From: Ceratodon purpureus
Lineage: Eukaryota > Streptophyta > Bryopsida > Pseudoditrichales > Ditrichaceae
Length of the DNA stretch: 64,000 nucleotides
Direction: 5' to 3'
Assembly: GCA_014871385.1 (NCBI GenBank)
Contig: CM026425.1
Coordinates: forward strand, 1,054,001 to 1,118,000
The translations under genes and the position numbers were made by a program. Positions 48 through 64,000 of the stretch are shown one piece after another. Within the stretch, counting starts at the first letter, position 1. Each line of letters begins with the position of its first letter. Below the pieces are notes generated by a model. The model did no database searches. It was not told where the DNA came from and saw only the letters and a list, made by a program, of their open reading frames with translations.

Positions 48-67
48 CATCGGGGGATCTCCCGATG
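48..67. repeat. Region A palindrome, first complete copy
   Basis: CATCGGGGGATCTCCCGATG is a near-perfect 20-bp palindrome centred on GATC. A truncated copy (CCCTCGATG) starts the window at base 1. It lies in a probable intron upstream of the first visible exon. Confidence 0.85.
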
Positions 68-187
68 ACCTTAGTGCCCTTTCGTGCCTCTGATATTCTC
101 AATGGTACTGTGAGATAATTGTTTCTACAAATGTTAACTGATTTGGAGCAGGGATTTGACCAACAGTGATGTATGTCTGTTCTGCAG

Positions 188-3100
188 GAATGAACAGATA
201 ATGGAGCCACCATTGGACTTCAAGCCCGTTAAGCTGTACCCCTTTGTCGATCAGTGGATCCATAGCTACAATCACGTCGGAGAATCAAATCCGTGCGCAG
301 TTTACCGCTGCGATAAGAACGTCACCGAATGGGCCATGTCGTGGAAGGATACGGCAGGAGGCATGGCCGTCATTGTCCCCCATCTCACCTGTGACGGGCG
401 GATCCATTCCCCGATTGGATTGAACGTTCTCGAACTGAAGGGCCTTGATGTGGGGACAGCTATCATGGTGGTGGAGGAGAAGATGCCGAAGTCCGATCGG
501 ACTGTAACTTATGGACTGATCCTCGACCTCGGCAAGCTCAGCCTGAATCAGTGTGCATCCCTCACTGCCAAGGGCTTGATGTACCTGCCGGAGGATAAGG
601 CGAAGTGGACTCCGGCACAAATTGAAAACCAGTGGAACCTAATTGACGAGGCGCGAAGTGAGGTTGAAGCTGCTGCTCCTGTTCCATCGAAGACTCCGAC
701 TGCGACTACTCCTACGAAGACGCGGGGCACAAAAAGGAAATCTTCCTTGATCAATGACGGGGAAACTGCGGTGCCGGACACAGGGAAGGGCAAGAAGGGA
801 AAGGGTGATGACAAGCTCACTCTACAGCAGTGTGTGACAATGTCAGCTTCGGATATTGAGAAGCTGGACAAGACCAAGCAGACGGAGATGAAGAACCTGT
901 ACAGCGAGGCGTTTGAACCACTGTACAAGTGGGGCCACGAGAGGCTCAAGGATGAGAATGATGCGCCAATAACTGTGCACTTCTCAAAGCTGCACAGGGC
1001 CCCTCCAGGTTCAATCGTCTACCGAGGACTTGTTCCGGACAGGCTAAAAGCCTTGACGAACCAGGCGCGCATCGCTCCGAGGTACAGTGGAACAGATAGA
1101 GAAATCACTGTACTTCCACTGAAGAAGGGACCTTATGGACCGGATAAAAAAGTAGAGTTTTTCAGTAAACCTCCGGAGAAGAATCAGATCAACAGCTCCA
1201 CTCCATTCTTCATCATTGGGGGCCAGCATACGGTTCAGTGTTACCGAGATCTCGTTGAGAGTGGGGAAATTGCTGGGGCTGACAAAGACAAGGCGTCTAA
1301 GTTCTCAATCATCCCAGTGTGGGCACCCAAGCCTGAGCACATCAAGCTCATGCTCCTCTCACGGGTCTTGAACCAGGATATGGCCGGGCCACAGAAGGAG
1401 CACACATTCATGATGCAGGTGCTCCACGCCAGAATCAAGTGGAAAGAGTTGAAGTGCCCGATGCCAGCCTTACAGGGACGGCAGCACCCTATAGAGTTTC
1501 TGGTAAGTCTGTATTCCCCTCCTCATCGAGAGATCCCCCGATGATCTTAGTTGTATATCTGTATATATGTATCAAAGTCATCGAGATATCCCCCGATGAT
1601 CCGAGTTGTAGAAATGTCCGTGGCCCCTTAGAGTATTCCTCGTACTTCCCATCATCGGGCGATCCCCCGATGGCAACTTCCTGTGTCGCAGAGCTCTACT
1701 AACCCTCCCCCGACGTGTGGTACGCAGCAATTCACTCAAGCTCTGGCATCGATCTTCACAAACGTGAAGGAATCAGAGCTAAGGGACTGCAAGATACCGC
1801 TACTGTTTCTTGAAGACGATACGGCGGTTGACCGGTGGGTGGAGATTGAGAAACAGTACATGAAGGGGAAGCTCCCAGATGCGCAAGGGAATGTGCAGAC
1901 GAACTATGACCTCAAGCGGAAGCCATTTGTCCAGAACGATTTGAAACCACTATACGGCCTGCGCTCAGAGGATATCCATCACCTTGCTGACCTCGTGGAG
2001 AAGAAAGAAATATCTGTGAAGGGATCGAAGGCCACCAAAGGTGATAAAGTGGCGAGATTACCGTCCCTTCAAACAGCAAGGAATAGGGAAAGACTGATCA
2101 GATGTATGAAGAACGAGTTGATGAACACCTATATGGGTTGGGAGCTTCCAAGCCGTAAGAGCACATACGTAATGTATCCTGCACATGAATGGGACGAGTT
2201 TGCCGACCTGAAGAACATCACTCGCGCGGAGCTGGAGAGCTGGCTCGATAAGGCGTATGCAACGGCTTCGGGGAAGAAGTGGCTGGACGACCGAAACAGG
2301 AACCTCAACAAGACCTCTGATCCTGCGGACGTGCCTGACTTCGTTAAGGTGATGTGGGACGCTCACAACATGGTACAAGAGCAAGCAAGTCACTTATCGC
2401 ACATCCAGAAGGGGTTCGATCAGAAGTACAAGTGCGTGCTTACGGACCGGAGTAGGCCCGAGATTTCTGTTATTTTGCGAAGTGAAGAAGTGTATAGTTG
2501 GAGAGGAGGGGCAAAACCACACATATTCATGTACTTCGGGTTTGATGCGATCGCTGACATGCCAGTGAAAGCTCAGGTGCTACAGGAGAACGTCCTGTCT
2601 CGGATATTCGATCCTCTATTGGGGCAGGAAATTAACAGCACGCAGGTCTTTGTTCGCTCAGGAGCAGTTGTCTTCACAGATGCGGCGGGATTCCATGCGA
2701 CACTACTGCACATCGATACGCGCACGAGGACAGCGAAGAGGAGGTTGTGGAACTGGCATGTCGTCCACTACGTCCCTTCCCGCGAGGACGGATTTCCCGA
2801 ACCGGAGCTGGGTTCTTCATACGTTGTCTACATGATTTTTTGCTTCGCTTATTCGCCAACGCAGTCTCCGAAGGAATGCTTCGGGGATTTCTTTGCGGGC
2901 AAGAGGCCATTCGACGCAGTGTACCTGGCCAAAGACATTACGGAAACCATCCAGCAATGGAGACGACCTGGTCGACCAACGATTAAGGTGGCCGCCCTTT
3001 CTACTATCTTTCAGCAGCACATTAAAGATAACATGGTGCTCGTAAACGTCAACGGCGGGGCTCACTTCACCCTCCTTGGACTTGTAAGTACTCTGTCTGC

Positions 3101-6100
3101 ACCCTTCGAATGTTGAAGTCATATTAGATATTTCTCTTTCACTCACTCGAATGCTTCCACTTTAGTTCATACTTGTGCGAATACACTGTTGTTCTTGAGG
3201 CTTATTATGCAGATGTCCTCCACTTATAGTACTCACGATATATGCACTCGTTCACTCACGTATATAGAATCTAAGTCAGAAGTCCTTCTCTGTTCTCAGC
3301 CTCAGTGTTTTCGGATATGTCCTCACGGATACAAGATTTATCGGGGGATCCCTCGATGGACGGATAACGTCTTAAAAGTCTAGGCTTAAGGGGTTCTCAA
3401 ATCATCGAGGGATCCCCCGATAAATCATGCACTTCTGTCCACATTTCCCGGCACCTCTGATCCCTTACGCAATGAAATTGAAAGTGACATTTGGTTACAG
3501 TCTGCTGTTCGCATTTTATACATGTTCTTATCGCCTGCATGTCTACAGGAAAACGAAGCCATGGTCCTCGAAGTTGTCTTCTGTGACGATGATGAGAAAC
3601 ACGCGAAGAAGACGTCGAAGCAGATATGGGACATACTTTACAAGGAGGCAGTTGACCCAGATGAATTGGTAAACGATGATGCTGGTGACGATGGTGATGA
3701 TGAGGCAGGCGGCGGAGAGGGTGATAATGAAGATGGTGTGCCTGCTGATGAAGATGCCCGCGAGCAATCGCCGCCTGGTGATTCCGAATCCAACTCTGAC
3801 GAGGAGGAGACGGCTTGCACCTCGGTAGGTTCTTGAGCTTAGGCAGGCTTCCCTAATTTGGGTTTCCATGTTGTTTTATCAAGTGGCGAAATCTAGCATG
3901 ATTACTACCCTCGTGTAGGGGTTCTGTAAGAAACTGTACCATTCTGTAAGCATCATAAATTGCATACCATTATGGAAAATGAGGAATTTATATTTCTGGA
4001 AAACGCTATTCCTCATCCGACCAATTATTTCATTCCATGTAACATCCCCCTCACGACTAAATTCCCTACTCTTGTGAGCAAGGCACCTCTCTTTTGTTTG
4101 CTTAGCACTGCACCTCGGGTTAACTTCCAAGGCATTGTAGTATTCCTGTACCATATACTCGAACCCAATTTCTACTCCACTGCAGCTTTTCTTACCGCTA
4201 ATGGTGACCTGCGCTCATATTGCAGGGACTGCTGAACTCCGCGCGCGTTTATGGTGGAGCTGCGTCGAGGGATCACACCGTTGACGATTCTCACGTGGGG
4301 GAGTCCTTGACGCCACGAAGCGATGTTGCCACCGTGTCGGGAAACACGAAGGACGTAGCTCGGTCGCTGCTGGATATGAGGATATTACCTGTGGATCACC
4401 AGACTCAGACTACGGAACCTGAAGGTGGCGCAGAAGACGTGGGAGAGGGTGCTTACGGGCTGGATGACTTGGACTTTAATGTCCAGAACTTCGCTGCGGT
4501 TCCGCGAATGAATGAATCCGCACCAGCAGGAGAGGAGGACGCGGGAGTTCACAGGGATTCGGAGGGGACGGATAGGGATGCTGTGGACTCGGGAAGGATT
4601 TCTCCTCCTCAAGAGCAGGAGACGGAGGGAGGAGTAGCTGATAGTCAGCATGAACCGTGCATCCCACCATCGGGAGATATCCCGATGACAGAAGGCAGTG
4701 CACCAATTCCAAACCAACACCCCCCCGTACCTGAGGAGTGCGGTCCTCAGAGTTCGCTGTCCGTCACTCCTTATGTGATCCCTTGCAGCCCCCCGCCTCC
4801 TCTCCCATCCAGCCCCCCGCCTCCTCTCCCACGGATTACATCTCCCGGGGAGACTCATCAGTCTCCCCCCGTGGCTCCTGACATGAACGAAGATGTTGTT
4901 GACGACACTCTGAAGGATTTAGACGCGTTCAGCCCGGAGAAGACGTCGTGCGACGCGGAAGCCCTGGTGTGCGACGATGTGAAGGCATGTGAGGAGGTCA
5001 AAGACAACGACGCGGAAGTGGAGGAGTCTACCGAGGATTTATATGAAGGGCTCCCAGACAACGCACCTACGGAGGTAACCACTGAGGTAGATGTAGTCGA
5101 GGTGGAGAAATCTAAGGACACAGATCGTGAATGTCGCTCACTTGTGCTGGAGAAGCGTTTGCAACGATCCCTTCCGCCGGAACTTCCGTCGGGAACAACA
5201 TCCGGTCCCCCGGCCACACGAGGAAAGGGTAAGTCTGGGCCTAGCACCGGAACGGGGGTCAAGGGGAAGGGAAAAGGTTCCGGTGCTGAGAGAGAGCCTA
5301 AGGGAAAAAGCACTCCAGCAGGAGCTCGTGCTAGTCTGGACGAACAGGTAAGGGATCACATATCCCAGCGAGGGAATTACACCCCACCCTCTGGCAAGGC
5401 TAAGCATCTTGAAGCAGTTAGACAGGCTCACGAGTTCGTTTACAAGGACTATAATGATAAAATCCCATTTACTAATGACTTTGAAAAAAAACCTTTACCA
5501 GATTCCGACGTCTAAAACGGTTGGCATTTCATCGGAAGCCGAAGATCCGAATTTGGACGACAGTGCGAAAGGTATTTAGTCGGACTCTAATTGTAGGACT
5601 GATAGTTCTAATGTCCTCAGATTGGGCATTTGTAGAACGTGTAGTGTCTCCTGTAGATGCTTGAGGAATTCAGTAAACATGTGCATCGAGGGATCTCCCG
5701 ATGCTTGGATCTACTATGACATTTTTTCAGTGGACATCTATATCGAGGGATCTCCCGATGCTGAATGTTGATCACACCTGTTCACAGTGGACATCTATAT
5801 CGAGGGATCTCCCGATGCTCAATGTTGATCACACTTCTTTACAGTGGACATCTTTATCGAGGGATCTCCCGATGCTAAATTCTGATGAGATTTTTTTTGG
5901 TTGCATTTTCCAGGGCCCCCTCTCCCATCCTCCGTTCCAGCAAAGGTGATCGGAAAGGTACCCGGTCGAAGGTATTCGGTTGTACTAGACTTAAACGGGG
6001 TTCTCGTTCACCGTGGGATTTTTGTCAAGGGAAAAAAGCGCCCTATAATGCTCAGACCTGGATGCCAGGAATTCCTGAACTGGCTTCATACTCAGGCAAC

Positions 6101-6566
6101 GGTAGCCTTTTGGACCAGCATCGCGCCTAGGAATATACCTGAAACTCTTCCTGTTGTTCTTCAGGGCACCTCCTTACAGCTGCCAGATGTGCAGGTTCTT
6201 AGCCAGAACGAATGCACACGTTCGTCATACATGGAGTCGTCAAAACCAGACAAGCCGTTCTTTCTAAAGGATCTCCGTGTCTTACCTAAGTTCCTGGTAT
6301 TGGAGTCCGTTGAGAAAGTCCTACTAGTGGATGATAGTCCACAGAAGAACCTTCTCAACGACCCTCATAACGCTGTCCACCCCCCAACCTGGTCCGGGGA
6401 TGGTGCTGATAGGTTTCTTACGATGACACTGAAACCGTGGCTGGAGGGTCTATTCAGCTCAGGGGAAGCTGTCCCAGAGTATGTGAAACGGGCCCCGCTT
6501 CCGTTCGGTCAGTTCCCCATGGACCGGTCGTCGGACTTGGCACTGAAGATATTGAGGGCGGTGTAG
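188..6566 (+). CDS. Multi-exon transposon-borne gene with C-terminal FCP1/HAD-like domain (5' end outside window)
   Basis: Proposed exons: 188-1502, 1692-3083, 3549-3824, 4226-5347, 5502-5571, 5914-6566. Each has a plausible acceptor and donor, and the first four junctions are all phase 0; the phase 1 left by exon 5 matches the acceptor at 5913. No convincing ATG precedes 188, so the gene starts upstream. The first exon holds a stretch ending FFIIGGQHTVQCYRDL (near 1210-1255) that recalls the ParB GERRxxA box. Exon 3 is acidic and exon 4 is Asp/Glu/Pro-rich and probably disordered. The last exon looks like an FCP1/SCP phosphatase: VVLDLNGVL, AFWTS, KDL and LLVDDSP boxes in order. The second catalytic Asp of DxDx(T/V) is Asn, so activity is doubtful. 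Introns and exon 4 carry the element's palindrome. Alternative: exon 4 reads on without splicing to a stop at 5515. The family of the N-terminal half is not recognised. Confidence 0.55.
1524..1672. repeat. Three region A palindromes packed in one intron
   Basis: Copies lie at 1524-1543, 1579-1598 and 1653-1672, spaced 55 and 74 bp. All are inside the 189-bp intron 1503-1691. Arms vary (CGAGA, CGAGAT, CGGGC) while the CATC...GAT(A)TC...GATG frame is kept. Confidence 0.85.
3339..3422. repeat. Two region A palindromes in the third intron
   Basis: TATCGGGGGATCCCTCGATG at 3339-3358 and CATCGAGGGATCCCCCGATA at 3403-3422, 64 bp apart. They are reverse-complement-like copies, both inside the intron 3084-3548. 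Confidence 0.85.
4668..4687. repeat. Region A palindrome inside an exon
   Basis: CATCGGGAGATATCCCGATG lies within the Pro/Asp-rich exon 4226-5347, where it encodes part of a disordered stretch. It is the clearest coding copy of the motif. Confidence 0.85.
5684..5911. repeat. 57-bp tandem array carrying four region A palindromes
   Basis: Palindromes start at 5684, 5741, 5798 and 5855, exactly 57 bp apart. The shared unit runs CAGTGGACATCTATATCGAGG, then GATCTCCCGATGCT, then AATGTTGATCACAC. The array fills the intron just upstream of the FCP1-like exon. The palindrome is the best kept part of each unit. Confidence 0.9.
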
Positions 6567-6770
6567 CTTAGTACAAATGACTCTGGATTTTGGAACACTC
6601 ATTTTATTCACAGTTCTTTATTGTCAATACATACATTCTCTCACATGACCATGTAATGAAGCGAAGATTGTAGTTTAGTGCAAATTACTTTGGATTATGG
6701 AAAACTCATTTTATTCAGAGTTCTTCATTGTCAACACATACATTCTCTCACATGACCATGTAATGAAGCT
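6563..6770. repeat. ~100-bp direct duplication at the gene's 3' end
   Basis: The stretch from about 6563 (GTAGCTTAGTACAAATGACT...) recurs from about 6670 (GTAGTTTAGTGCAAATTACT...). Both copies end in ACATGACCATGTAATGAAGC. Copies are about 107 bp apart and differ by scattered substitutions. They lie between the two FCP1-like exons, which fits duplication of the gene's 3' end. Confidence 0.8.
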
Positions 6771-6967
6771 GTAGCTCCCTCATGTTTGATAGCAGAATGA
6801 AACTAACCGAGTTCCTGAAAATTTGCATTTGTCTTACTGAACGCAATGGAGTTCTGGAACTTTGAATGGATCTTTGAATTTGTTTTGTTTTAAATTCGCT
6901 TTGCTGTGGTAATACTCTTTCAAGACATGGTCTGACCACCTCTGTGTGCCATGGCGTTGGGAGGCGC

Positions 6968-7037
6968 CATCGAGATATCCCCCGATGAACTATGTTAGCG
7001 AATTCGTCATTTACAAACATCGGGAGATCCCTCGATG
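6968..7037. repeat. Two region A palindromes before the second FCP1-like exon
   Basis: CATCGAGATATCCCCCGATG at 6968-6987 and CATCGGGAGATCCCTCGATG at 7018-7037. The second ends 50 bp before the exon at 7088, so both probably lie in an intron. Confidence 0.85.
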
Positions 7038-7087
7038 TTTAGTCTCAGATGTAGAAATGTCCTGATGTTTTTATTTCAACTGTGCAG

Positions 7088-7690
7088 AAGGCGATAGTTC
7101 TCTCGGTTAATGGCGTCCTGTGCTTCGAGGATTATAAAGGATTCAGCCCGCCGTTGCTGGACTTAGGGAATGTCATTTGCCGTCCTGGAATTCGACCGTT
7201 CTTTCGAAAGCTTCTTGAAGACTTCCATGTCGGAATATGGTCATGTATGCCCCCATCCCGCTTGGACCTTGTCTTAGCGCATCTGCTTCCACTGGAGCTT
7301 AGATCGCAGTTAATTTTTGTGTATGGTCAAGACAAGTGTGTTCGACAGAAGCCTTATCCATTCTTCCAGAAGTTCCTGCAACGACTTCGTATGGATAAAA
7401 AAACTCGCAGGTTTTGCAAACCGGGTAAAGTTCTCATGGTAGATGACTATGAATGGAAGAATGTAATGAATGGAAATCATTCCTGCTATTTCCCGACTCC
7501 TTGGAAGGGTGAAATGCACCTACCTAATCCGCGAAACGTCATACCAGACGTCGGCACAGCCTTACTTCCATTCATTATGGATTTGGTTCATTATGACTCC
7601 GTTACTGAGTTCCTTCAGAAAACTCCCATGGATGGGGAATTGTGTAGGAGATCACTTAGGCAATGGTACACCAGTAGAGTAGAACAATAG
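7088..7690 (+). CDS. Second FCP1/HAD-like terminal exon, paralogue of the preceding one
   Basis: An open frame follows a good acceptor (AG at 7086-7087) in phase 0 and ends at TAG 7688-7690. It aligns by eye with the last exon of the upstream gene: IVLSVNGVL matches VVLDLNGVL, IWSCMPPSR matches FWTSIAPRN, VLMVDDYEWKNVMN matches VLLVDDSPQKNLLN, and both end with an E(Y/F)xxxxP(L/M) tail. Here both Asp residues of the HAD nucleophile motif are lost (Ser-Val-Asn), so it should be catalytically dead. No upstream exon of its own is visible between 6567 and 7087. It may therefore be an alternative last exon of the upstream gene or the relic of a tandem duplication. Confidence 0.5.
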   Translation, partial: KAIVLSVNGVLCFEDYKGFSPPLLDLGNVICRPGIRPFFRKLLEDFHVGIWSCMPPSRLDLVLAHLLPLELRSQLIFVYGQDKCVRQKPYPFFQKFLQRLRMDKKTRRFCKPGKVLMVDDYEWKNVMNGNHSCYFPTPWKGEMHLPNPRNVIPDVGTALLPFIMDLVHYDSVTEFLQKTPMDGELCRRSLRQWYTSRVEQ

Positions 7691-7929
7691 ACAGTACATG
7701 CAGTGAGTTGGTTACAATCCAGTGGCCTTGTGTACCACGATGTATTAGTGGTAATAATATGGCACCGTCCATTCGAATGACTTTCATGACAATACCTCAT
7801 ATTCATGTAACTTGTTTTTGTAATGTAAATGACTATTTCACCATCATCGATCTATGTGTATTATTTGTAATGTTATATTACTTAGTTTGTCCATACCATT
7901 TCACTCGTGCAATTGTGAGATGGCTGTTG

Positions 7930-8160
7930 TTCTTCCGGAAGACACCTATAACGGGAAATCTCCTGATCCATGGTTTTGCAAAACACACATTATTCATTAC
8001 ATTACTTTGTCCATACATTTGTTGCCACCGGAACAGCACTATATCGGAAGATCTCCTGATCCATGGACTTGCAAATCATACAATGTTCTATACATTACTT
8101 AGTCCACACATTTCCCTCGTCTTGGAACAACTCTATATCGGAAGATCTCCTGATCCAATC
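7930..8160. repeat. ~93-bp tandem array with a diverged palindrome
   Basis: Three units carry AACGGGAAATCTCCTGAT at 7950, ATCGGAAGATCTCCTGAT at 8043 and the same 18-mer at 8137, spaced 93 and 94 bp. Surrounding unit sequence (TCATACAATG, TTACTTTGTCCATACATTT, GGAACA) also repeats. The motif is a drifted version of the palindromes upstream (CGAT to TGAT). This may mark the element's right flank. Confidence 0.8.
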
Positions 8161-9114
8161 ATTCAAATAATTCACTATTCATAACAGTAGGGCATGGTTT
8201 TACTAAGCCCCTTTCATTTTCCTTGGCTTTTTCTGGACGATCTACAGTCCATAACTCAATGAATAGTCCAGAAATAGTTAAATATGGCATAGTACATCAA
8301 GTCTACTTTCCGTATCCTAAACTTAATTTCCCATCAAGAAGTTTTAGATGCCACTTTCTAGCGTGTTTACACAACAGGCTGAAATTGGCAATGAGCTAAG
8401 CACTTTTGTGGTCCACTTTATTGTGCTTCCCCCCTAGTTCTATCATTGCACTTAGCTCTGCTTAAATACAACAAGGTTCTATGATTGACTTCTTACATGA
8501 ATGAAACTTAACCTTTGCACAAACAGGAAAATGGAGAGAGGCAAGGAGAGACAACCAGAGCAGATCCATTCAAGCGAAGAGAGAAACGACATCATCGTCA
8601 ATATATGTTCTAAAAAAACAAGGTACGGGTACAAAGATCAACAGTACCTTCAAAGTTTGCATAGTCTTGAGACACCAATATGAATTAAGCATCCGTCTGC
8701 GATGCAGCACCCACTCCTTCTAGGTTTATGAAATAATTTCAAACCTAAAACCCGTACTTTATCAAGTATGAACAGTAGATAACATTGCATATGTAATAAT
8801 GGCCGAGTAAAACACCATACATTACTATTGAATTGAGTACCTTAGTCACTTATATTTACATATTGACAAAAAACAAAAAGGTTAACCGAGAATGAAAAGA
8901 CTGTTCAGCTTCGAAAATAGTCTTAAAGATTAACAACACAGTAGAGTTGCAAAACAACTACATTGCTAACCGACTTTCATAAAACCTGTGAACATACAAT
9001 GTCTATGGTCTCCAAAATGTAAAGTTGGTACTGGAAGTAATAATTACATGTTTGTCCGTTTGGGAAGAGTACTCCAGGAGAACTACTCATGCCGACTCCA
9101 TTGACTGTACACAT
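8161..9114. other. Non-coding stretch
   Basis: AT-rich sequence without a convincing gene. No palindromes of region A and no inverted-repeat end were found here, so the right boundary of element A is unresolved. Confidence 0.5.
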
Positions 9115-19425: not shown

Positions 19426-19458
<33 letters not shown>

Positions 19459-24485: not shown

Positions 24486-24787
24486 GGAGAACGCTAAATG
24501 CTCCGTAGGGAAGGATAAGGCGGGACGGCGCGCCTCGGCTTCCACCGTGGCACGCCACCGTGGACGGCCCCGTTTTCCCCGCGCCCCGCCTCCCGGGTAA
24601 CTCCGCGCCCCCGTAAATCCGAACTCCGTGTTACACTGTGACATAACCACAACTCCCGTGACACTAAACACTGAATGTGCCCGTGACACTAAAATTTTCT
24701 ACTGACCGCGATCCAGAAAAAGTGACGTCACGCCACGTCAGTCGTCTCTCACCTCCCACAGGCGACTAGGGTTTAGGGTTACCCAGT
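24486..24787 (+). repeat. Left terminal inverted repeat of the MULE
   Basis: Matches the reverse complement of 38086-38390 almost base for base, with an 11-bp indel near the inner end (GGGTTTAGGGTTACC versus GGGTTCTGAATGCGATTAGGGTTACC). GC-rich outer part contains an internal hairpin (CACGGTGG/CCACCGTG). Two exact GTGACACT octamers lie at 24658 and 24683. Confidence 0.93.
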
Positions 24788-25650
24788 GTTTCGTGTTCTC
24801 GTCGTTTGGGTATGATTGCTGTGGAGGAAGTGCGATTTGAAGGTTGTTGGGTTTAGGGTTTCTAGTCGAAGTTATTGTAGATTGTAGGGATTGTACGTTT
24901 TGTTGGTTAATTGCTCCCACCGCTTCGTGTTTCTGCTGTGTTAAATCGGTCCGAGCTGGAGGTTTAGCATAATTACGCAATCATAATGCTGGGAGGGCTG
25001 GAGATGACATCTATGGCACGGGGCGAGAGCTCTGTCTTCATGTTGGAGAAGGAGCTACTCTGTGGACATCGTCGCTATGGAGGTAAGTTCTGTATTTTTC
25101 CGAGATTATGCGCATCCCTCCAATCCGGTTTCCCTGCATTGCTTGTTATCGTAATGGAATTTGATACTTTCCACATTGCTGACCTTCGAGTTACGTCCAG
25201 GAGCTCCGTGGAGACGTCGCCGGACCCCAAATTTGCATTCTGGAGCATTCCGAGGTGGGGCTCCATCTTCTGGGTTTAGGGTTTGATGTTGCTCCCGATT
25301 TCTACATGTTACATGACTGTTTTAGGGTCTTGAAATGTTGCATTCTTCGCGGGATTTTAGCACCACATTAGGTATGTGAACTCCTGCCATACTCCGCTTA
25401 CTTCAGTGAATGTAATATGGAAGTTGCGCCAATTTCAGTTGTATTGTGGGGATGTTCCGGGTGCTGACGTAGAGGTTGTTGTAGGGACGATGTCCAAAAC
25501 CTTGAGGAGGACTGGTATTTTTCAGAGGTGCTGTGCCGAAGCGGATGCGGTACTCTTATTGGGGTCGTGAGTAGGTTTAGGTATTACTCGTTTTTTCCAG
25601 CAGGGTGTGTAAAGTGTGGAGCGGGTACAACAGTTTTCAAGGCTACCGAT

Positions 25651-33770: not shown

Positions 33771-33957
33771 CTCTTCACCCTAAACAGACCCAAAATACAG
33801 GAAGAGGTAGGCGTCCAAAAGAAAGGGAGCCTTCCACCTGGTTGAAGGCAATATGAGGGAGAAATTCGTGAACAATGTCACGCTGAGAAAGCGTGAAGAA
33901 GAAGTCAGGTAGAGGATGGACTCTGTCACGAACGTGTCACTGGAACAGTAACGTTAC

Positions 33958-37837: not shown

Positions 37838-38085
37838 CCTCACTCCAACCCTAAACCATAGCTCTAAATTCTAAACATGTAAAACGTAGGAAAATAAACA
37901 TAGAGGAACACTGCAAGCCGTAGGTGACATTGAGCGTTTTCAATCAGTATACATTGTAACTCGAAAAGCACGCAAGAACAAACCGTAACACGAGCTATAA
38001 AGGTATGGCACCAGAATTGCATTGTTTAGATTCGCATTGGAAAAAACACAGAACAAAGCTACCCGAACAAGCATAACACTGGGTA

Positions 38086-38390
38086 ACCCTAATCGCATTC
38101 AGAACCCTAGTCGCCTATGGGAGGTGAGAGACGACTGACGTGGCGTGACGTCACTTTTTCTGGATCGCGGTCAGTAGAAAATTTTAGTGTCACGGGCACA
38201 TTCAGTGTTTAGTGTCACGGGAGTTGTGGTTATGTCACAGTGTAACACGGAGTTCGGATTTACGGGGGCGCGGAGTTACCCGGGAGGCGGGGCGCGGGGA
38301 AAACGGGGCCGTCCACGGTGGCGTGCCACCGTGGAAGCCGAGGCGCGCCGTCCCGCCTTATCCTTCCCTACGGAGCATTTAGCGTTCTCC
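38086..38390 (-). repeat. Right terminal inverted repeat of the MULE
   Basis: Inverted copy of the left end. AGTGTCAC octamers at 38186 and 38211 mirror those on the left. The transposase gene starts just inside this end and reads away from it, as usual for MULEs. Confidence 0.93.
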
Positions 38391-41790: not shown

Positions 41791-41827
<37 letters not shown>

Positions 41828-43055: not shown

Positions 43056-43998
43056 TTAATCCCTAAAGGACCATTGTCCTAGAATGGGCTTTTTTAAAAT
43101 TCGGGCATGTACCTGTGACTTCAATTGTAGTCAAGAATTTTTGAAACTTTTTGTGAATGTAGGCCATAACAAGAACTTTGAGGGAATCTAATTTTTTTTC
43201 AATTGGACATTATAAAAATACTTATGGTACCCAAAGTGGAAAAGGTTGTTAAATGGGCAACTCGGGCAGCCATGCTAAATACATCAATTACCTCTGGAAA
43301 TATTTCTATAAATACTTCATGATGTCATCTTTGACGTTTCTAAAAAAAAGACTTCAAGTGCAGAATGTTTATTCCACAAAATATCAAAGTTTTCTCACCG
43401 TTTCGGGCAGTGTACTAAAAAAACTTCTTCTTTCCTTCATAAAAGTTAGAAAAATATTATTTTAGATTTGTTCTTTTTTTTCAGTGAAAATATGGACATC
43501 AATCTTTACTTTGACCGTTTGGATTATGACTTTATTGAATAATGGAATTACTAGGAAAGAAATAAGATTTAGCACTCTTATGTATCAACTTAATAAAAAT
43601 ATTGTTTTCAACATGCTACACTTGACTTTTCGGTGTAATTTTTTTTAATAAAATTACCTAACTTAGTCTTCTTTGACATGCACCAAAACCTCCAAAATCC
43701 ATAATGCAAAATACCTAAGAAAAAAAAAATTAGAGTGTGTCAACTTAGTCAAAACTCTTGTAAAAAAAGATTGTTTTTAAATTTCAATTGCTATAATCTT
43801 CTAATATTTACGTTTGATTATATTGAAAATTTTGAGTTGTCTATTACAATAATCTACTTGGAGATCTTACGGTTAGAATTAGAAAATAATGATTTTTTAG
43901 TCATTCAAGCTTTTTACATTGGAAATGGCAGTTTTGACATGCACACTGGAAACCGAAGATGCCAATGCAATGCCAAATTCAAATGTGACATGTGTTAA
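43056..43998. mobile_element. MITE-like element 1 (TTAA-flanked)
   Basis: Begins TTAA-TCCCTAAAGGACCA and ends at the next TTAA (43995-43998); the right terminal repeat is decayed. It contains GATCTTACGGTT at 43863 and GGGCAG hexamers. No coding capacity. Length (943 bp) matches its three relatives. Confidence 0.5.
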
Positions 43999-44874
43999 CC
44001 CCTAAAATTCTGACGGTATTTTTCATCAAAACTGCCTCAAAACAGCCCCTCTTCAAAGCAAGGCGGATTTTGCAAACTTGGGGTCTTTTTGGGTACATCT
44101 AACCGTAAGATCTTGTAGCTAACTTCCATGTCTACATGTCCACCAAATCTCACACACTCATTCTTCACCAATTGCAAGATCGTAACGTTCAAAGTAGGAA
44201 AACAAGTTTTTTTTCACTGCGAAAAAAGGGGACAGCAGAATTTTGAAGGCCCAAAAAACCATTTTTTTGCATTATGGATTTTGGTGGTTTTGATGCACGT
44301 CAAAGAAGACTAAGTTAGCTAATTGTATTAAAAAAAATTATATTCAAAAAATTTGTGGAAGGTTTCCAAAAAAATCATTTTCCACTAGTGGGTATACTGA
44401 AATTCACAAACAAAGGCCGTTTTTGGACAATAAGAATAGCATATGAAAAAAAATTGGATTAAAAATCCAAACGACGGGAACATGCTCTATTGCCTTCTCT
44501 ATACACAAAAATTTTTATTTTTGAAAAATATCAAAATCTCAATTTTTGGTGGAATTTCAAAGTTTCTTCTTTGGGCAGATTTTCGCAGATTTTTGCAATT
44601 TCGGGCAGTTTTGGGCAGTTTTGGGCAGAATTTGCTGCATTCACAGTGGCTTAGAAAATTTCAGCAGCTGCCCAACGAGCAGAGTTTGACACTTAAACCT
44701 TCATAACTTTTGATCCCAATGTCAGAATTGAAAAATAAAAATACCTACACCAGGATCCCCAAACGGCCCACCTTCAATAAAAATTTCAGAAAATCCCGAT
44801 GTAAGTTGCATTCATAGGTACATGCCCAAATTCCAAAAAAGCCCAAATGTGGATGATTGTCATTTAGAGGTTAA
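43995..44874. mobile_element. MITE-like element 2 (TTAA-flanked)
   Basis: Starts TTAA-CCCCTAAAATTC and ends CATTTAGAGG-TTAA. Contains CCGTAAGATCTTG at 44103 and a GGGCAG cluster near 44,600. It shares its TTAA boundaries with elements 1 and 3, as if elements inserted head to tail at the same target. Confidence 0.55.
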
Positions 44875-52300: not shown

Positions 52301-55300
52301 GGAAAGAAAAAATCATCATACCTGAGGAAGTAAAAGTCAACATACCTGCAGCACTTCAGCACCGGTGGTTCCAATAATGCGCCCTACGATTTGATCCTGC
52401 TCCTCAATGCTGAAATGAACACCAAAAAGAGGCCAAAGCTCTTTCTCCTCCCTTGAAACATGGTGATCAAGGCTGACTCTGATGGATTTGCACATTCTTT
52501 GCAGCTTGCCTGCTAGATTCCTTCGCTGAACCATTTCAGTTTCCAAATAATCGTTCTCTATAAGCGTGTACAGTGTAGATAGTTCCAGTAGTACCTTCAA
52601 CAAAGAAGAATAATATATCAGCTCAAGAGCGTAAACCAAGTAGAGGAAGAGCCCAACAATATTCAAAAAACTAAACAAGCCCATAAAGGCAAAAAATTTG
52701 AAGTACAAATGAAGGCGAAGAGAATCACCTCCGCAATATCTTTGAATAATTGCTCCTCTTGCTTGTGATCGATCGTATATGAATGGCTTACATTATGCAG
52801 AGCCTCCTTCGCTTCCAGTGCTGGAAAGACTATATCATCCTCGGCATTGCTATGTGCTCTGTACAGGCCCCACAGAAACTGAAACCTCCCCTGGAACTGC
52901 CTGAGAAAATCCTCATCACAGTCGGCTAGTTTTGCAGATTCGATATCCAGGTATTCGAGGTCCTTCCTAATAGCTTTGTGGAATTGAAAGATATGGTCAA
53001 TTGGCTTTGGCCCTGAATCAGAAATAGGACCTTTATCGTTTCCCCATCCAAAAAGCCCAGAGTTCAATGAACTACTAGTTGAGGTTGCTGTATACGGCAA
53101 TAAGGTTGGCCCAGAAGGACGGCCACTGATACTGCCACAACCTAGCCCAGGGGCACAACATGTCGATGCCCCTCCACAACGATTACTGCTCTTCATAACC
53201 TCAACTGGAGAATCTCCACTTCTCTCCTCCATTTCACCCCCTCGTGGACGCTTTGGTGCTCGCGTATCAAGAGTTTCCAGAGGATCATCTGGCCCATGCA
53301 CACTACCAACCTCAATTGAATTTTGCTTCAAATCCGGCGGAGGGAGGGTTGATCCGCTTTGCAAATTTGTGGTTTCAACCCCTGCACTACGTTTCATTCT
53401 CATAACAGGGCATTCATCAGAATGAGATGAAGAGAGACAGCGAATGCTCCCAGCACTTGAGAGATTTTGTGGATGCCCTTTGCATGCCCATCCTGAAAAG
53501 AGGGTCACAAGAGCTATATCTTCAACAGGGGCTGCAGAACCAGACACAATAACGTCAGCAAGCAATGTAGCTGGTCACAACGAGCTCAAGAATTCTCGCA
53601 AGATTCATCTACGCACATGAAGAAAAGGAGACCTTGCAGTTATACCTGCCAGCCGCATGTTCTGAAGCATTTCTTTTGCTTCGTCCTCACTTAAAATGGC
53701 AACCAACCATGGAAGAACTCGCTCCAGCAACTTCAAGGGCATCACCCTTAGACTCTGATATAATAAAGCACGTTGTTCTTCAATACTAGAATGTGATTGC
53801 GTGAAACGCAGTACCTGGACAGAGGATGACCAATAGCACTGTCAAGAATCTACAGCTGATTGAGATACGCATATAAAATGCAGCACAAAACGGCAGATTG
53901 AAGTTCCAATTTTATTCATAACGTGAACTGAACAACGTAGTCACTAGACCATCTTCAAAATATCGCTAATGTCAAACCTGACATTGCTAACACCTGTTAC
54001 TTCACATCAAAACCTGGATAAGAACTGTATTAAGATGAACATGTGAAAGCATACTTCTTACTTTTTGTAACGTCTATGAAAGAATACTTGCAGATTACAA
54101 GAAAATAAAGAAGATGAAAATATATGAGACATACCTGAACCTCCTCCTCCTCCAAAAGATGCTGTTGAATTGACTCCACAATAAGCTCAGCTTTCTCGCA
54201 AAGTTCACGATGCAATTGAGCAACTGTTGTACTGTTGTTCACCGCTGCCTGCACACCCTCGAGCAATCGAAGCACATCCTCAAATCGTCGGTCTTTCTCA
54301 GCATGGTCCATGAGATACGTCACCCGCTCCTGAACTTTCTGGTGTAGAGTAGGACACATTAACTTATCCTCCACCGAGCTGCCAAATCACTCAATATATC
54401 ATTATCCAGTCCATAGTCAATAAATGCAGCTTCATAATAGGAAATCACACCCATTGAAGCAAGTTTGAACCTTTCCAGCATTTTTTTTAATCTTTTATTA
54501 ATATATGAAAAGATCTATCTATTGAGGATCTACTTTGTCGATGTAAAATTAACTCTGTTAGAATAGCTGAACCAACACAAGAACATCTCACCTTTGAAAA
54601 TTGCAAACATCAGCCAAAAACTGTGACCGCTCAATAAAAGCCGTGAGCTTAGCTGGAGATAAAGCTCCCAACGATTGGATTTGAGCTGCTTCTTTAGCGA
54701 TTTCTTGCAGCTCTTTTCGGATTGCATTATGCCAATAAAGAAGCTCTTTGAGAGGAGAAACCAATGGCCCGCTTTTCAATGATTTACTTTGTAAATCTTC
54801 TTTGATCACTGAGCTCTCTCTATCAAGTGCCCATGACATAGCTAAGTCTCCTGCAACCCTCGAGTCAATTGCAGCCCAGGCAGCTGACTCTGCATCTGTA
54901 TTTGCTTTGGGAATATCGAAAGCGTCTACAGCTCTATTCCCCCCTCTTAGCCATGCAAGAACCACCTACACCACAAAACAGATGGACGAAAAATAAAATC
55001 AACGAATCGAATAATGTCTGACATTCTAAACAAGACCTGAACACAAGAGAATCAAGTAATTTTAATCTCACCCTCCAAACACCCACTTGCCAAGAGTGAT
55101 TACAACTAAATTAGACATTTCACAAGCACACTTGCCTTGTCAAGTGCCCTAGGTTACATCAACAACAGGGCTAACACTTCCTCAAAGACCTTCTTTCGTA
55201 AAAAATACGTATTAAACGTAATCAAGAACTTCGACGATCACACGCCATGTGATACTGGCGACGAAATCGATCAAAAGCTAGACTGCTGATCCTACTACAG

Positions 55301-58620: not shown

Positions 58621-59179
58621 ATGTAAGTTAGCCTAGCCACCGTGTGGGCGCGGGCCTCGCAGGGGCACACGGAATGTTGTGCTGGCATGTGGAACTGGGG
58701 ATTGCAGCACATGCCTCCACAGGTCCCACCCCTCCTGCCAAGCCCTGGTTTTCACAAGGTTTTCGCCTCTCCACATTCAAAAACCTTGAATTGAAACTGC
58801 AAAACAAATTGCAACCTGCCCATAAAAAGATTTCAAAAAGAACAAATTCTAAATAAGTCTCTTCCAATGTTGGTAATATTTTTAGTTATTTTTTAGTTTG
58901 AAAAAATACAAAACAAAAAGAAAGGCACAATGTAAGCTACATTTATCAAGCCATTGGAATGCAATGATGCTTGTTTGGAGAAACATGAAGGATAGGAGAA
59001 TTTATCTACTCGTTTGAAGGATAACTAGCTCTTTATATTTTAATTTTTGAACATGTTTATATATACTATTTCTTATTCAATTGTAAGTTTATTTTCAATT
59101 ATAATCTTTATGCCACATTTAAGTAAATCTGGACTTTCAATAGTCCAGATTGGTCAAAGTCCAACTGAAATATGATGGG
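58621..59179. other. Intergenic DNA
   Basis: No gene or repeat recognised; turns AT-rich after 58,780. Confidence 0.45.
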
Positions 59180-59620
59180 TAGGGTGAATCGTAGGATCAT
59201 ATAATCCCGCAAAGACCTAACCGTTTTATGAAATTGAGAGAGACGATAAAGGTTAGAAATGAAAAATACAGCAAAAATTGCTCAAGATTGTGTGCGGATC
59301 TTATCAAGCATGTGGATATTAAAGATTGGCAACTTGTAAAACACCGTAAGATCCTACTATCCATGGTAAGTAGGTATATATAAACACTTCACGTTAGAAC
59401 ATTACATAAACAGTAAAGAAGACTCCAAGAGTATTCATACGAAAGTTATCAAACATGTGGGTATTGTAATATTTAGAAGTAGTAAGCAGGACCGTAAGAT
59501 CCTACGATGTTTGCCAACCTAGGTGTAAAAACACATCACATTATTTGGATTCTGTGAAATGTAAAGAAAAATCCAAATCGGAGTACAGCGTCTTACAGGA
59601 TCGTAGGAAACCAGCACAGA
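59180..59620. repeat. ~150-bp tandem array with degenerate palindromes
   Basis: Palindromes ATCGTAGGATCATATAAT (59188), ACCGTAAGATCCTACTAT (59343) and ACCGTAAGATCCTACGAT (59491) are spaced 155 and 148 bp. A fourth half-site lies at about 59,600. Shared unit text includes TTATCAA(G/A)CATGTGG and AACA(C)AGTAAAGAA(G/A)A-type blocks. The left arms CCGTAA match the MITE-like elements in 43-48.6 kb. Confidence 0.7.
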
Positions 59621-60190
59621 GCCGGAAAGTCACTGAACCAATCCAATGGATCGGAAAAAGAGGAAACAAAGGACCTGAAAAGAGGGAAAACCTCCGGGAA
59701 CGAGACAAGCTCGGGAAAAGTCCTGAAACGACTCACAGTCACCACCTAGTCCAAAAGAGCAGAAAAAACTAATCAAAAGGAACAAAGGGGCGTGAATGTG
59801 TCCAAAACTAAAAAGGACTAAAATGAAAGCTACCCTGAGCAACTAATGTACTATCTACTCAGGCTAACTAAAACTTCAACCCATTTCAACTACATGAGAC
59901 TAATCCGTGAATGGCAAAATTAAGGTGAACAATGTCGTATTGATTGACAGAGTCTTCAGATTCCCGTGTAGAAGAGAACCGTTGCCGCGGATGAAAAGTG
60001 AGCAGGTGGGTGAGGAACCCGCCAGTGCTCACACTTCCAACTTGTAAGCAGCTTCTAAATACTTACAAGCCAATAGTATGTTACTAGACAAAAAAAACCA
60101 AAAAGCTTGCCCCGAGATTAGAACCTCCGAGTATGTGCAGTAGTCTATGCCAACGAAGGCCGCTGATGGTGGATGGTGATACTTGAGAAC

Positions 60191-60697
60191 TTATTTTCGA
60201 CCAGGAGGATACAGTTCCTTGAAAGATGGGGTCAGGAAATTCGGCCCTAAGTAGGGCATAGCTCTCCAGCAATCTCTGTATTCCTCCGACTCTGTAGTCA
60301 GCTCAAGACGGTCGGCTTCGTCCGCAGTGTGGTCTCGATCGCTAGAAGCCGCTGCCTCAGAAAGCTCGGGGTTGAAATTATCCGAATTAGCCGCCACCTC
60401 CCCTGTGTGGCTGAAGTGAACGCTGCCAACACTCTCGGACTCCTCAGACTCCTCGGACTCCTCGAACGTCAGTGGGAAGGCGATGCCGGAAGCCTTAGAG
60501 ATCTCCAGCAACTCTATTGTGTGAGCAATACTCCAATCCCACTCCGCACCTGGCTGAAGAACGCGTGTGATGTATTTGAAAGCAGGAATAGCTCTGTTGC
60601 GTGAACGGGCAACCACCGCCCTAAACCATGGCCGGAGCTCCTCGACGTCAGCCGGTGTCTCCTGTATAAACCAGTCATTGCTACCCCGCCTCCCCAT
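60191..60697 (-). CDS. Acidic accessory protein of the element (168 residues)
   Basis: ATG at 60697, stop at 60191-60193. An N-terminal basic/aromatic part (GRRGSNDWFIQETPADVEEL, RPWFRAVVARSRNRAIPAFKYI) is followed by a Glu/Ser repeat (FEESEESEESESVGS), an acidic stretch and a conserved-looking tail (YLGPNFLTPSFKELYPPGRK). It lies on the transposase strand, about 0.8 kb downstream of it, separated by the 92-bp array. Possible introns were not tested. No family recognised; placement suggests an element protein rather than a host gene. Confidence 0.45.
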   Translation of the reverse strand: MGRRGSNDWFIQETPADVEELRPWFRAVVARSRNRAIPAFKYITRVLQPGAEWDWSIAHTIELLEISKASGIAFPLTFEESEESEESESVGSVHFSHTGEVAANSDNFNPELSEAAASSDRDHTADEADRLELTTESEEYRDCWRAMPYLGPNFLTPSFKELYPPGRK

Positions 60698-61074
60698 AAC
60701 GACAAAATATTTGACAATATGCGACTAACTTCTGCAGTTTGTAACTAACTTCTACAGTATGCGACCTTCTTCTACAGTATCCGGCTGGAGTTCGTCTACT
60801 AAACTGGTAAAAATTCTAGTAATCCACTTCTTCTAGGGTTTCTGGACGTCTACTAGCCAACGTTCACCAATCCTAGTAGCGCCTAGGCTCCTACTCAGCG
60901 ATAAGAAAACATTATTAGGACTAGGACTAGCTTAACTAGCTGACAGCTGAAGGAAAGAAGCACATCTAAAACTGAATAATCACTCAGCAACCAGGCAGAG
61001 GCAAAAGCAGCATAAACGAGTGCAGTTTGATTAAAAAAAGTAAAATCCGAACAGATGTAGCGAATGTTCAACAG
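60698..61074. other. Spacer upstream of the accessory gene
   Basis: Contains short repeats of ACTTCTGCAGT/ACTTCTACAGTATGCGA at 60,725-60,780 and CACTCAGCAACCAGGCAGAGG (60,985), a drifted piece of the adjacent 92-bp unit. Likely promoter region of the accessory gene. Confidence 0.4.
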
Positions 61075-61462
61075 GGTCGTAGGATCCTACGATCTCTTTA
61101 CGAGTACTCCTGGGCAAAACGAAGCACTTCTAAAACAAAATAATCTCATAGCAACCAGGTAGAGGAGATCGTAGGATCCTACGATCTCTTTACGAGTACT
61201 CCTGGGCAAAAAGAAGCACTTCTAAAACTGAATAATCTCATAGCAACCAGGTAGAGAAGATCGTTGGATCCTACGATCTCTTTACGAGTACTCCTGGGCA
61301 AAACGAAGCACTTCTAAAACTGAATAATCTCATACCAACCAGGTAGAGGAGATCGTAGGATCCTACGATCTCTTTACGAGTACTCCTGGGCAAAACGAAG
61401 CACTACTAAAACTGAATAATCTCATACCAACCAGGTAGAGGAGATCGTGGGATCCCACGATC
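61075..61462. repeat. 92-bp tandem array with five palindromes
   Basis: GATCGTAGGATCCTACGATC-type palindromes start at 61075, 61167, 61259, 61351 and 61443, exactly 92 bp apart. The unit reads CTCTTTACGAGTACTCCTGG, GCAAAACGAAGCACTTCTAA, AACTGAATAATCTCATA, CAACCAGGTAGAGGA. In the last copy both arms change together (GTGGGATCCCAC), so symmetry is kept by compensating changes. The array lies just downstream of the transposase stop. Confidence 0.95.
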
Positions 61463-61508
61463 TAGCGACAAAACTCTGGATGGATATGGGGGATAAATTA
61501 TGCGACGG

Positions 61509-64000
61509 CTACGGATCCATAAGGTTAGCAGCATCAAGGTTAGCCAATGCGTTTACTCGATCTTGCTTTGGGATCTTCCGTGTCTTGGGGTTTTCTTTTG
61601 TTGTGGACTTTGCAAAGAGCACTGAAGTTACATGAACTTGCTCTGGTCGTCGATCTTCTCGTACCCAAGTAGCGTCCCAGCAATTCTCGTACTTCGTCTT
61701 CGGGTCGGTGTGGCGATTTCTGGGCTCCCAGAATTCGATAGTGAACTGGCCATAGTCCGCATTTCGTTCATCACGATTGACCGCTGAACATGCTCTCCCT
61801 AACCAGACGGGATAAATATCTGGGTCGGAGGGACGAAGTAGGACCCAAGCCCCTGGTAGGACATCTCGCCATGGGTTCAAGGCGGGCTTCGGTTGAGCGG
61901 ACTTGGGGCCACAATAGGGCTCGGGTTCTTCATCCTCAGGTGTGACATCCGTCTCGGGGAGGAGGCATAGAGGTGCACTCTCCATACCTGACCAGTCATG
62001 ATTAGGCCAGAAACCCTCTACCAAGGTCGTCACGGTTGAAGGAAGAGGTTTCTCCAATTCTGCGAGAATGCCCTTCCAGTAATCAATATACGGAGGAAAA
62101 TCCTTGCGAAATCCGGAACATTCAAGCATCCCGCGTTCCCAAAATTCGATGTAACCTTGAATTCCACCCTTGAGGAATGACTTCTTAACGAGATTTTTGG
62201 AAACTTGTTCTCTTGCCTTGTCTTGGTTGCCAGTGGACGCAACAGTCTCATCACCCCACAAATTCTTGAAAGGGACTGGATTGGGGATGCCAGATGGTAT
62301 CTTCGGATTTCCATCAGCATCCGCCTTGAATAGACGGATAGCCGGCTTGTTCCTAGGTAGCCAGTGTTGGTCAACTGCAAACTCCTTGAATTGCATGACG
62401 GGCCACCCGCTTTCGTCTACATAGAATTTGAAGAGGTGCATATTTCCCAAACCCACGAGAACATCCGCTCCGTCAATGAGATAGCCTTCCACGAACGATT
62501 TGAAATCCGCAACCTCCTGAACAAACTCGGGCATGAAACTCAATTCCTGGGATTTCATGAAGGCCAACATCAAGTCCGCAACAATGTAAGTATTCTGACT
62601 CTTCAAGGTCTTAGACAGATGGCTAAAGTAGGCATCAATATCCTCGTGCGTGTGCCCCACCAATAAGAAACCAGCCTGGATCTCTTTGAATACACGCCGA
62701 TAAGTAAGCATCGACAAGAACCCCATCAGGAATTGATTCTTGTTGTCCTTTGCGGAGTTATCCAACTGCAAATAAAGTTTCACTGGGAGCGGAACGCGTT
62801 CACTGGAGTTATTCGTTACTTGGGGTAGTACGTCAAAACATCTGGACTTTCCCTTGAGGATGGCTCGAAAGAAGGAGTTAGCGGGCTCATGAGGGAACAG
62901 TTTGCCAGATTGACGAATGGGTGGTTCCTCAAGACGCCGAAGCAGTCTCGCAAGCGAGGAGATAGTGTAGTTAGAGTCGCCTGGCCACAAGTCTGTCGAG
63001 AAGTGGGCGTAGGCACCGTCGCCGTGCCCATGCGTAACCATGCCCGTGACATTCATAGGAAACTGTCCCAACGGTGAAGTATGTTTCGTGGAAACGCGCA
63101 TTCGAGGAATAGCCGTCTTTGCGGTATCCATTTTGTCGTGGATAATACAAAGTATTTCGCCCTTCTGCCTCTTTGACTCCTCCCTCCAAGTGTGGTACAG
63201 ACGCCTACAAGACGACTGAAGATTGCAATGGTCCTGTTTCTGTTTCACAAACTTGAGGTATTCTGGCGATCCCTTCACTGATCGGTCAATGTACTGGAGA
63301 AGAGTGTCGCACTCTGTGCACTTCGCGAAGGAACTCCCAACGGGTTTGATTGCGACATTCTTAAAGTGCTGCTTCTTCAGCCTACTTATGGCTGATTGAG
63401 ACACCGCTGGTAACCCAAATTCTAAGTTGGTCTGCATATCAATCCAAAAAATCTACTAGTCAGAGATGTACCCTACTTGTACTCTTCATAAGCATTAGCA
63501 ATGTGGAAATGAAGCAGGAATGCAATATTAAAGATGTTTAATCTAGAGAGTTCGTAGGATCCTACGATCCCAAAATACACCATCAATTTTGTGTAAACAT
63601 TTCCTCCCAACTTAGAGATCGTAGGATCCTACGATCCCAGAGTAGATGGGAATTTTGTGTAAACATTTCTTTCCGACTTAGAGATCGTAGGATCCTACGA
63701 TCACGTAGGAGAGTAATTGGTAGCGGGTCACTATGGATCGCTAATAATAAAAGGTCACTACAGTAATTTGTGAACCCCGTTAAAGATCGGGTGAACCGAT
63801 GTTCCAAGTCGTCGGATCGTAGGATCCTACGACCTCAGGATTATCAAGCAGATGTCCCATGAAAGATACACTGAATTGACAAGAGGGCGTGTTGTTCGTA
63901 GTTAGTACCTGGGTGGCGTCTTGTTGGATCATTTTCCAACTGTGACCAGAGGGTAGAAACTTCAGTGTGTCCATCCTGCCAGGTGCTATCATTCTCATCT
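61509..64000 (-). CDS. DDE-like transposase (DUF7869-like) with C-terminal reader-like domain, 5' partial
   Basis: Main exon 63431-61509 (acceptor ATGCAG), joined in phase 0 to an upstream exon whose donor GTACTA lies at 63908 and which runs out of the window. A zinc-binding start (CTECDTLLQYI...CNLQSSC) precedes the catalytic-like core: IIHDKMDTAKTAIPR (Asp), LYLQLDNSAKDNKN (Asp/Asn), FLLVGHTHEDIDAYFSHLSK (His, Glu, Asp). This order is typical of a transposase-like family found in many plant transposons. About 100 residues near the C-terminus (PGAWVLLRPSDPDIYPVWLGRA...GQFTIEFWEP...YENCWDATW) look like a BAH/Tudor-type chromatin-reader barrel. The frame is uninterrupted over 640 codons, so the gene may be functional. 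Confidence 0.7.
63550..63702. repeat. ~66-bp tandem array with three palindromes in the transposase intron
   Basis: Palindromes start at 63550, 63618 and 63683 (68 and 65 bp apart). Unit text AATTTTGTGTAAACATTTC and CAACTTAGA repeats. A fourth palindrome lies outside the array at 63815. All sit in the intron 63432-63908. Only the palindrome is shared with the 92-bp and 150-bp arrays; the spacer sequences differ. Confidence 0.9.

Follow-up and report, generated by a model that had tools for sequence, protein, structure and literature searches.

Large DNA transposons in the moss Ceratodon purpureus carry dozens of palindrome copies per element, and the spelling of the palindrome is private to the transposon family in the loci we read. 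Two such elements lie in a 64,000-bp stretch of the genome (C5:1054001-1118000; hereafter, the window), namely the right-hand part of a family-2 transposon (element A, window 1-8289) and one end of a family-1 transposon (element I, window 59109-64000), and a third, related family has a palindrome of its own. Each of the three families examined encodes both a DUF7869-domain protein and a ParB-like protein, and recognition of the sites by a dimeric element-encoded protein fits with this gene content. We put the probability at about 0.62 that the palindromes are binding sites of such a protein, by which a family would recognize its own copies.

Palindromic Sites in the Window and the Genome

In the window, the patterns CGNNRGATCYNNCG and CGNNNGATCNNNCG occur 19 and 20 times, respectively, compared to means of 0.11 and 0.42 (maximum of two each) in 100 first-order Markov sequences, and the palindromes reported in the initial annotation of this DNA are thus real. 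All 20 template sites fall inside the two transposon copies (1-8289 and 59109-64000), with 0 of 20 in the other 50.8 kb. The search was made against the C. purpureus assembly (362.5 Mb, 151 contigs, including the 110.5-Mb contig C6, which we take to be the V sex chromosome), where the exact template ATCGNNRGATCYNNCGAT has 3288 matches and a reversed control pattern has one; the expectation that the template would be commoner than by chance is therefore borne out, with counts thousands-fold above the control. The ATCGRGRGATCYCYCGAT class makes up 2173 of the 3288 sites and the ATCGTNRGATCYNACGAT class another 821, 723 of which are exactly ATCGTAGGATCCTACGAT. The remaining 294 sites, which include the mixed-arm sites, were counted together as one remainder; an example among those listed, ATCGGGGGATCCCGCGAT, is a single base away from the RGR class. 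The palindrome of the third family (motif 3, 17 bp) was found 3437 times genome-wide, with no matches to its control pattern.

The initial annotation had described one 18-bp template of fixed length and centre, in which only three arm bases would tell the elements apart. The template is indeed shared by elements A and I, but the 17-bp, differently centred palindrome of family 3 rules out a single template across all families, and the outer bases also differ (GATCG...CGATC in family 1, often an outer C/G in family 2). The array at the 3′ side of element A was correctly noted (7946-8157), but its palindromes are imperfect (ATCGGAAGATCTCCTGAT). Half-sites had further been assigned to elements resembling miniature inverted-repeat transposable elements (MITEs); those at 43863, 44104, 45680, and 47737 read AACCGTARGATCT and are not palindrome halves. 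Given that the full palindrome CCGTAAGATCTTACGG has 0 matches in the 362-Mb genome and that the half-sites lie within unrelated AT-rich repeats, we rejected the MITEs as members of the palindrome system. What stands of the proposed recognition code for a dimeric protein is the segregation by family (below) and the presence of DUF7869 and ParB-like proteins in all three families; its MITE part and its constant length and centre, which the third family breaks, do not.

Arm Spelling Segregates with Transposon Family

Motif 1 (TCGTNGGATCCNACGA) was counted 197 times in family-1 loci, motif 2 41 times in family-2 loci, and motif 3 (RTCGGCKGNCMGCCGAY) 51 times in family-3 loci, each with 0 occurrences in the other loci read; none of the three is present in the 50.8 kb between the two elements of the window. 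The family's own motif is carried by 31 of 34 family-1 loci, 6 of 7 family-2 loci, and all 11 family-3 loci, the four loci without any motif (L047, L049, L050, and L051) being end stretches. A later locus, L055, adds seven motif-3 sites and no other motif. Locus L001, which is partly family-2-like and has five motif-2 sites, is kept outside the family counts, and the overlapping loci L002-L004 were dropped.

Genome-wide, we noted only 33 mixed-arm sites, compared to ~1190 expected by simple arithmetic if T and R arms were combined at random in the 2994 sites that had been classified. Thirty of these have a TGG or TGA arm, one base off the GGG/GGA of family 2 (TGG is also a rare arm in family 1), and the other three have a TAG or TAA arm. 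The suggestion of the initial annotation that arm classes track the transposon family held in all loci read.

The families are numerous. A genome protein search with the DUF7869 open reading frame (ORF) of element I gave 69 rows, which we assign to at least 28 copies of family 1 (88-100% identity; one of them is split over two rows) and at least 40 of family 2 (62-63% identity), both lower bounds given that scoring covered the best 68 of 1325 candidates. For the exon-2 protein of element A, at least 90 matches were obtained in the genome (best 87 of 414 candidates), and the third DUF7869 family (query P0031, KC19_7G136300) gave at least 153 rows (best 49 of 1679 candidates). The DUF7869 proteins of families 1 and 2 are 63% identical, and P0031 pieces share 46-54% identity with family 1, apart from a single piece at 38%. 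The DUF7869 profile (PF25273) scored 149.2 bits, compared to a curated cut-off of 26, and matched 32 of 32 aligned proteins. Pfam scans, which covered some of the frames (ORFs of elements A and I, 32 DUF7869 proteins, and 38 ParB-like exon sequences), found no Mutator-like element (MULE) family.

Three side observations concern family 3 and its relatives. Among the matches listed, 17 copies of the P0031 family have open frames of 623-708 residues that match over approximately the first 480 residues only, apparently without the DUF7869 region, and are possibly a deleted subfamily. Upstream of a family-3 copy, positions 564-4357 of locus L053 contain a pair of long frames that overlap, in which a SWIM-like zinc finger was recognized by eye; this is possibly another transposon. 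The Physcomitrium patens protein P0019 includes the words VGGPPI and IGGPPT, as a family-3-like palindrome might read when translated in frame.

Shape and Placement of the Sites

Logos were built from 39, 35, and 23 sites of families 1, 2, and 3, respectively, with both orientations pooled, and read GATCGTAGGA/TCCTACGATC (family 1), CATCGRGRGA/TCYCYCGATG (family 2), and RTCGGCKG-N-CMGCCGAY (family 3). A half-site close to RTCGNNGG is common to all three families. Family-1 sites extend outwards as GATCG...CGATC, family-2 sites often have an outer C/G, and family 3 retains RTCG...CGAY within its 17-bp palindrome. Most positions within a site carry 0.9-2.0 bits of information (the central base of family 3 carries 0.03), and beyond three flanking bases the value does not exceed 0.17 bits; the flanks vary between sites, tandem units excepted.

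We compared eight gaps between homologous coding blocks: downstream, inside, and upstream of the DUF7869 gene, upstream of the ParB-like gene and in its introns 1 and 2, before NIF exon 1, and between the NIF exons, with introns presumed on the basis of open frames and of GT/AG signals identified by eye. Sites occupy all eight gaps in family 1, family 2, and the C1 copy of family 3, the family-2 sites downstream of DUF7869 being taken from the genome site listing. In family 1, 0 of 39 sites lie in aligned coding blocks (38% of the element's length; unaligned later exons are outside this count).

Changes in 219 family-1 near-sites (excluding L005 and L008) are most common at positions 1, 6, 13, and 18 (22-23 each), where they apparently reflect fixed variant sites. 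At the outer CpG bases, position 16 changed from G to A 13 times and position 3 from C to T seven times, and the same class of C-to-T changes occurred once each at the inner CpG bases. Such CpG changes would be the trace expected from methylation of old copies.

A Candidate Reader and Its Alternatives

The ParB-like protein is probably the reader of the palindromes, with DUF7869 as the alternative. An AlphaFold2 model of its exon 1 matched the three-dimensional fold of the ParB N-terminal domain. ParB-fold proteins such as ParB, Noc, and KorB bind short palindromes, and this, together with its presence in all three families, makes the ParB-like protein the best candidate. Assignment to ParB or to a DNA-binding family by sequence was rejected, as Pfam gave no convincing match for exon 1 or exon 2 (best rows at chance level, 0.029 and 0.027, from single members); a Protein Data Bank (PDB) sequence search with the exon-1 profile likewise gave one chance-level row (E 0.2). 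No ParA partner was noticed in the elements, although no search was aimed at ParA.

Several observations weigh against recognition by a dimeric element-encoded protein, or against the strength of the evidence for it. Some loci overlap and members of one family are closely related, which makes the site counts non-independent, and the segregation is based on three families. One locus, L054, which supplies 11 of the 51 motif-3 sites, was picked by motif and linked to a family-3 DUF7869 gene afterwards; without it, the count for family 3 is 40 of 40. The information inside the sites is inflated because they were chosen by consensus likeness. Some sites lie in reading frames, in family 2 within a DUF7869 exon (C1:10295381) and at window position 4669, and in family 3 as well. 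The two halves of family-2 sites differ (G/A) at position 5 in 14 of 20 sites, and in 0 of 20 are both halves A, though a dimer site would permit it. As for the candidate reader, the ParB-like model has a mean predicted local distance difference test (pLDDT) score of 61.4 and a predicted template modelling (pTM) score of 0.46, with a confident domain only at residues ~211-390; a Pfam scan of 19 homologues, listing families up to E 1, did not return the ParB profile PF02195; and a family-3 place on C4 (L053, L046) showed no ParB-like match.

The sites could instead be bound by DUF7869 acting as a transposase, for excision or synapsis in the manner of the subterminal repeats of CACTA and Mutator elements. 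DUF7869 is encoded by each of the three families and is divergent between them (63%; mostly 46-54%), arrays can be subterminal (as at 7946-8157 in element A), and one family-1 end has imperfect sites at distances of 81 and 384 bases. However, the palindromes are distributed along the whole element, in introns and between genes, the perfect sites in the complete family-1 copy begin ~2.06 kb from one end and end ~0.9 kb from the other, and the short terminal repeats are without palindromes, and we consider this role unlikely. Lower still do we rate binding by host factors, with each family serving as an enhancer or insulator adapted to a different host protein. The arrays upstream of divergent genes would suit such a function, yet it would take three separate host readers for what is one related group of spellings (RTCGNNGG half-sites in three related elements), and the sites of the window are confined to the elements.

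Two further explanations were weighed. Functionless turnover, in which tandem duplication and gene conversion homogenize repeats within a family as in satellites, finds some agreement with the many sites in tandem units of 57, 66, 92, and 93 bp and with array units repeated in several gaps of one element; it appears improbable to us, since the 17-18 bp sites are kept where the spacers between them differ, and the same gaps carry another spelling in each family. RNA hairpins in introns or leaders are the least credible of these readings, even though many sites lie in presumed introns and a 7-bp stem is possible for each. In the strand of family 2 that is transcribed with the ParB-like gene, G-T pairs, tolerable in RNA, are found at position 5 in 7 of 20 sites and at position 7 in 12 of 20, but A-C mismatches occur at the same positions in 7 of 20 and 3 of 20 sites. 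These mismatches make a conserved RNA stem unlikely and led us to reject it; sites are also found outside genes.

Proposed Self-Recognition and Known Systems

Under recognition by an element-encoded dimer, a transposon protein with two-fold symmetry would bind the palindromes, and each family would thereby mark its own copies. The predicted reader is the ParB-fold protein, which would diverge together with its dozens of sites. Less certainly, its loading on promoter and intron arrays might keep the chromatin open and the genes transcribed, an anti-silencing role like that of VANC for VANDAL elements, and the C-terminal domain (CTD)-type phosphatases of the element would perhaps assist in sustaining transcription. 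We infer this anti-silencing or self-marking role because the promoter, intron, and terminal distribution of the sites, their tandem units, and their parallel divergence match those of VANC/VANDAL. A more specific version, which we put forward tentatively and regard as the less probable outcome, is a eukaryotic counterpart of ParB/parS in which ParB-fold clamps would load on ~20-40 sites per element through a private, co-diverged code and spread over introns and promoters.

In Arabidopsis, the VANC proteins of VANDAL elements (MULE) are associated with family-private short motifs, many per element, in introns, intergenic sequence, and termini, and often in tandem; the VANC21 motif is the 9-bp YAGTATTAY, which has one orientation in arrays (PMC5735166 and PMC10398659, available text). 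Compared to the system as outlined in those texts, the moss motifs are likewise family-specific, concentrated in noncoding sequence, and changed between related families, with some family-2 and family-3 sites in frames. They differ in being 17-18 bp palindromes in a DUF7869 element. The likeness to the bacterial systems ParB-parS, Noc-NBS, and KorB-OB (parS, NBS, and OB being the sites of the respective proteins) lies in a ParB-fold protein and many short palindromes on the same replicon or element; the moss case differs in concerning a eukaryotic transposon and a protein whose sequence does not match the ParB family of Pfam.

Lanisha, a superfamily of DNA transposons that move by cut-and-paste (Maumus, McDaniel and Carey 2020, as cited in PMC12730594), is grouped with CACTA-like elements, with termini mostly CA..TG, in the citing paper (PMC12730594). 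The termini of the moss elements are TG..CA. The moss DUF7869 elements may be Lanisha or a neighbouring group, and the authors of the Lanisha report work on Ceratodon. Our literature search found no publication on DUF7869. In a 2025 survey of ParB folds (PMC12704722), sulfiredoxin is named as the eukaryotic case met most often, and neither "transposon" nor "plant" occurs in the main text of the survey; it relied on profile searches, which the moss ParB-like proteins would fail, having no Pfam match to ParB. Searches on ParB with palindromic DNA transposons in moss, and on Ceratodon transposable elements or sex-chromosome palindromes, gave nothing on the subject among the papers listed, as judged by title and the start of the abstract.

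Transposon-private motif arrays are already known from VANDALs. As far as the literature searches reach, the new features are the palindromic form, the group of transposons, a candidate reader with a ParB fold, and the occurrence of three spellings in equivalent places in three families. The moss elements would provide a second, apparently independent, case of private transposon self-recognition codes, in a plant lineage far from Arabidopsis. With related families that spell the site in three ways at matching positions, protein-DNA co-divergence could be tested directly, as could the sequence specificity of anti-silencing. Should the ParB-like protein be a CTP-dependent clamp, a bacterial chromosome mechanism would be at work in plant chromatin.

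Organization of Elements A and I

Element A (1-8289, forward strand; right boundary by comparison with a second copy) is inferred to form one element with a family-2 DUF7869 gene to the left of the window (C5:1027860-1029803). Its arms are G/A mixed at positions 5 and 7 (ATCGRGRGATCYCYCGAT), with one GGC arm, and sites at 1580, 4669, and 6969 have an altered centre. A palindrome (49-66) lies upstream of the ParB-like gene, whose exon 1 (201-1502, forward; ORF, splice site by eye, AlphaFold2 model, and VIA-align) holds the ParB-fold domain at residues ~247-393. The intron 1 stretch (1525-1671) contains three palindromes, starting at 1525, 1580 (TATC centre), and 1654, and is followed by exon 2 (1692-3083, forward; ORF with homologues in the genome) and by the intron 2 stretch with two palindromes (3340 and 3404; 3340-3421). 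A later exon-like reading frame (4226-5512, forward; boundaries by eye and approximate), acidic and of low complexity, contains the palindrome at 4669-4686 (GATA centre). Four palindromes with a 57-bp period (5685-5873) lie ahead of exon 1 of a NIF (CTD-type) phosphatase (5919-6563, forward, start approximate; Pfam PF03031, 8.1e-17). Two more (6969, TATC centre, and 7019; 6969-7036) separate it from NIF exon 2 (7085-7687, forward, start approximate), whose PF03031 match (1.9e-4, 21.6 bits) is slightly below the curated cut-off of 21.8. The imperfect subterminal array (7946-8157) is followed by the right terminal repeat (8261-8289, reverse strand), TGCCATATTTAACTATTTCTGGACTATTC, which is similar to the family-1 terminal repeat and has TA after it in the window copy.

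Element I (59109-64000, reverse strand) has a boundary common to copies on C1, C2, C5 (window), and C7. Its terminal inverted repeat, TGCCACATTTAAGTAAATCTGGACTT (59111-59136, forward), has TA just before it. The arms of its palindromes are TAG, except for single TGG, TTG, and TAA arms, the last in the asymmetric site ACCGTAAGATCCTACGAT (59491-59508). A small protein (60194-60724, reverse) also occurs at a family-3 locus (116 residues at 80%). Five palindromes with a 92-bp period (61076-61461; TAG, TAG, TTG/TAG, TAG, and TGG) lie next to the last large exon of the DUF7869-domain protein (61512-63452, reverse; Pfam PF25273, 1.3e-43), and four more, at 63551, 63618, 63684, and 63816 (63551-63833), occupy a gap of this gene that is presumably an intron.

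The complete family-1 copy, on C1, is 18,597 bp long with terminal repeats TGCCACATTTAAGTAAATCYGGACTT; the C2 copy has a one-base difference in the repeat at one end. Terminal inverted repeats were read at both ends in two family-1 copies and at one end in two others, and at one end in two family-2 copies; the ends of the family-3 element were not found. TA adjoins all six family-1 ends and one of the two family-2 ends (the window copy), and may represent either a target-site duplication or an invariant neighbouring dinucleotide. A TA duplication common to families 1 and 2 was not borne out, as the C1 family-2 copy has no TA at the end that was read.

Other Features of the Window

A different transposon at 24486-38390 is bounded by terminal inverted repeats of 288 bp that are 99% identical and is flanked by a direct repeat, CTGTAGATTG; SWIM-type and Ulp1-like stretches in it were recognized by eye, and Pfam gave no match for them. 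It has a private motif of its own, AGTGTCAC, with all 28 occurrences in the window, on both strands, lying inside it; the motif is non-palindromic, also present in reading frames, and in form nearer to the VANC motifs. An AT-rich fold-back element at 43595-44381, with 117-bp arms (79% complementary) and AACCGTAAGATCT words, lies outside the palindrome system. No tRNAs, and no Rfam families at gathering score, were found in the window. Exons with a Hemerythrin HHE domain at 52337-53574 (reverse strand) probably belong to a host gene.

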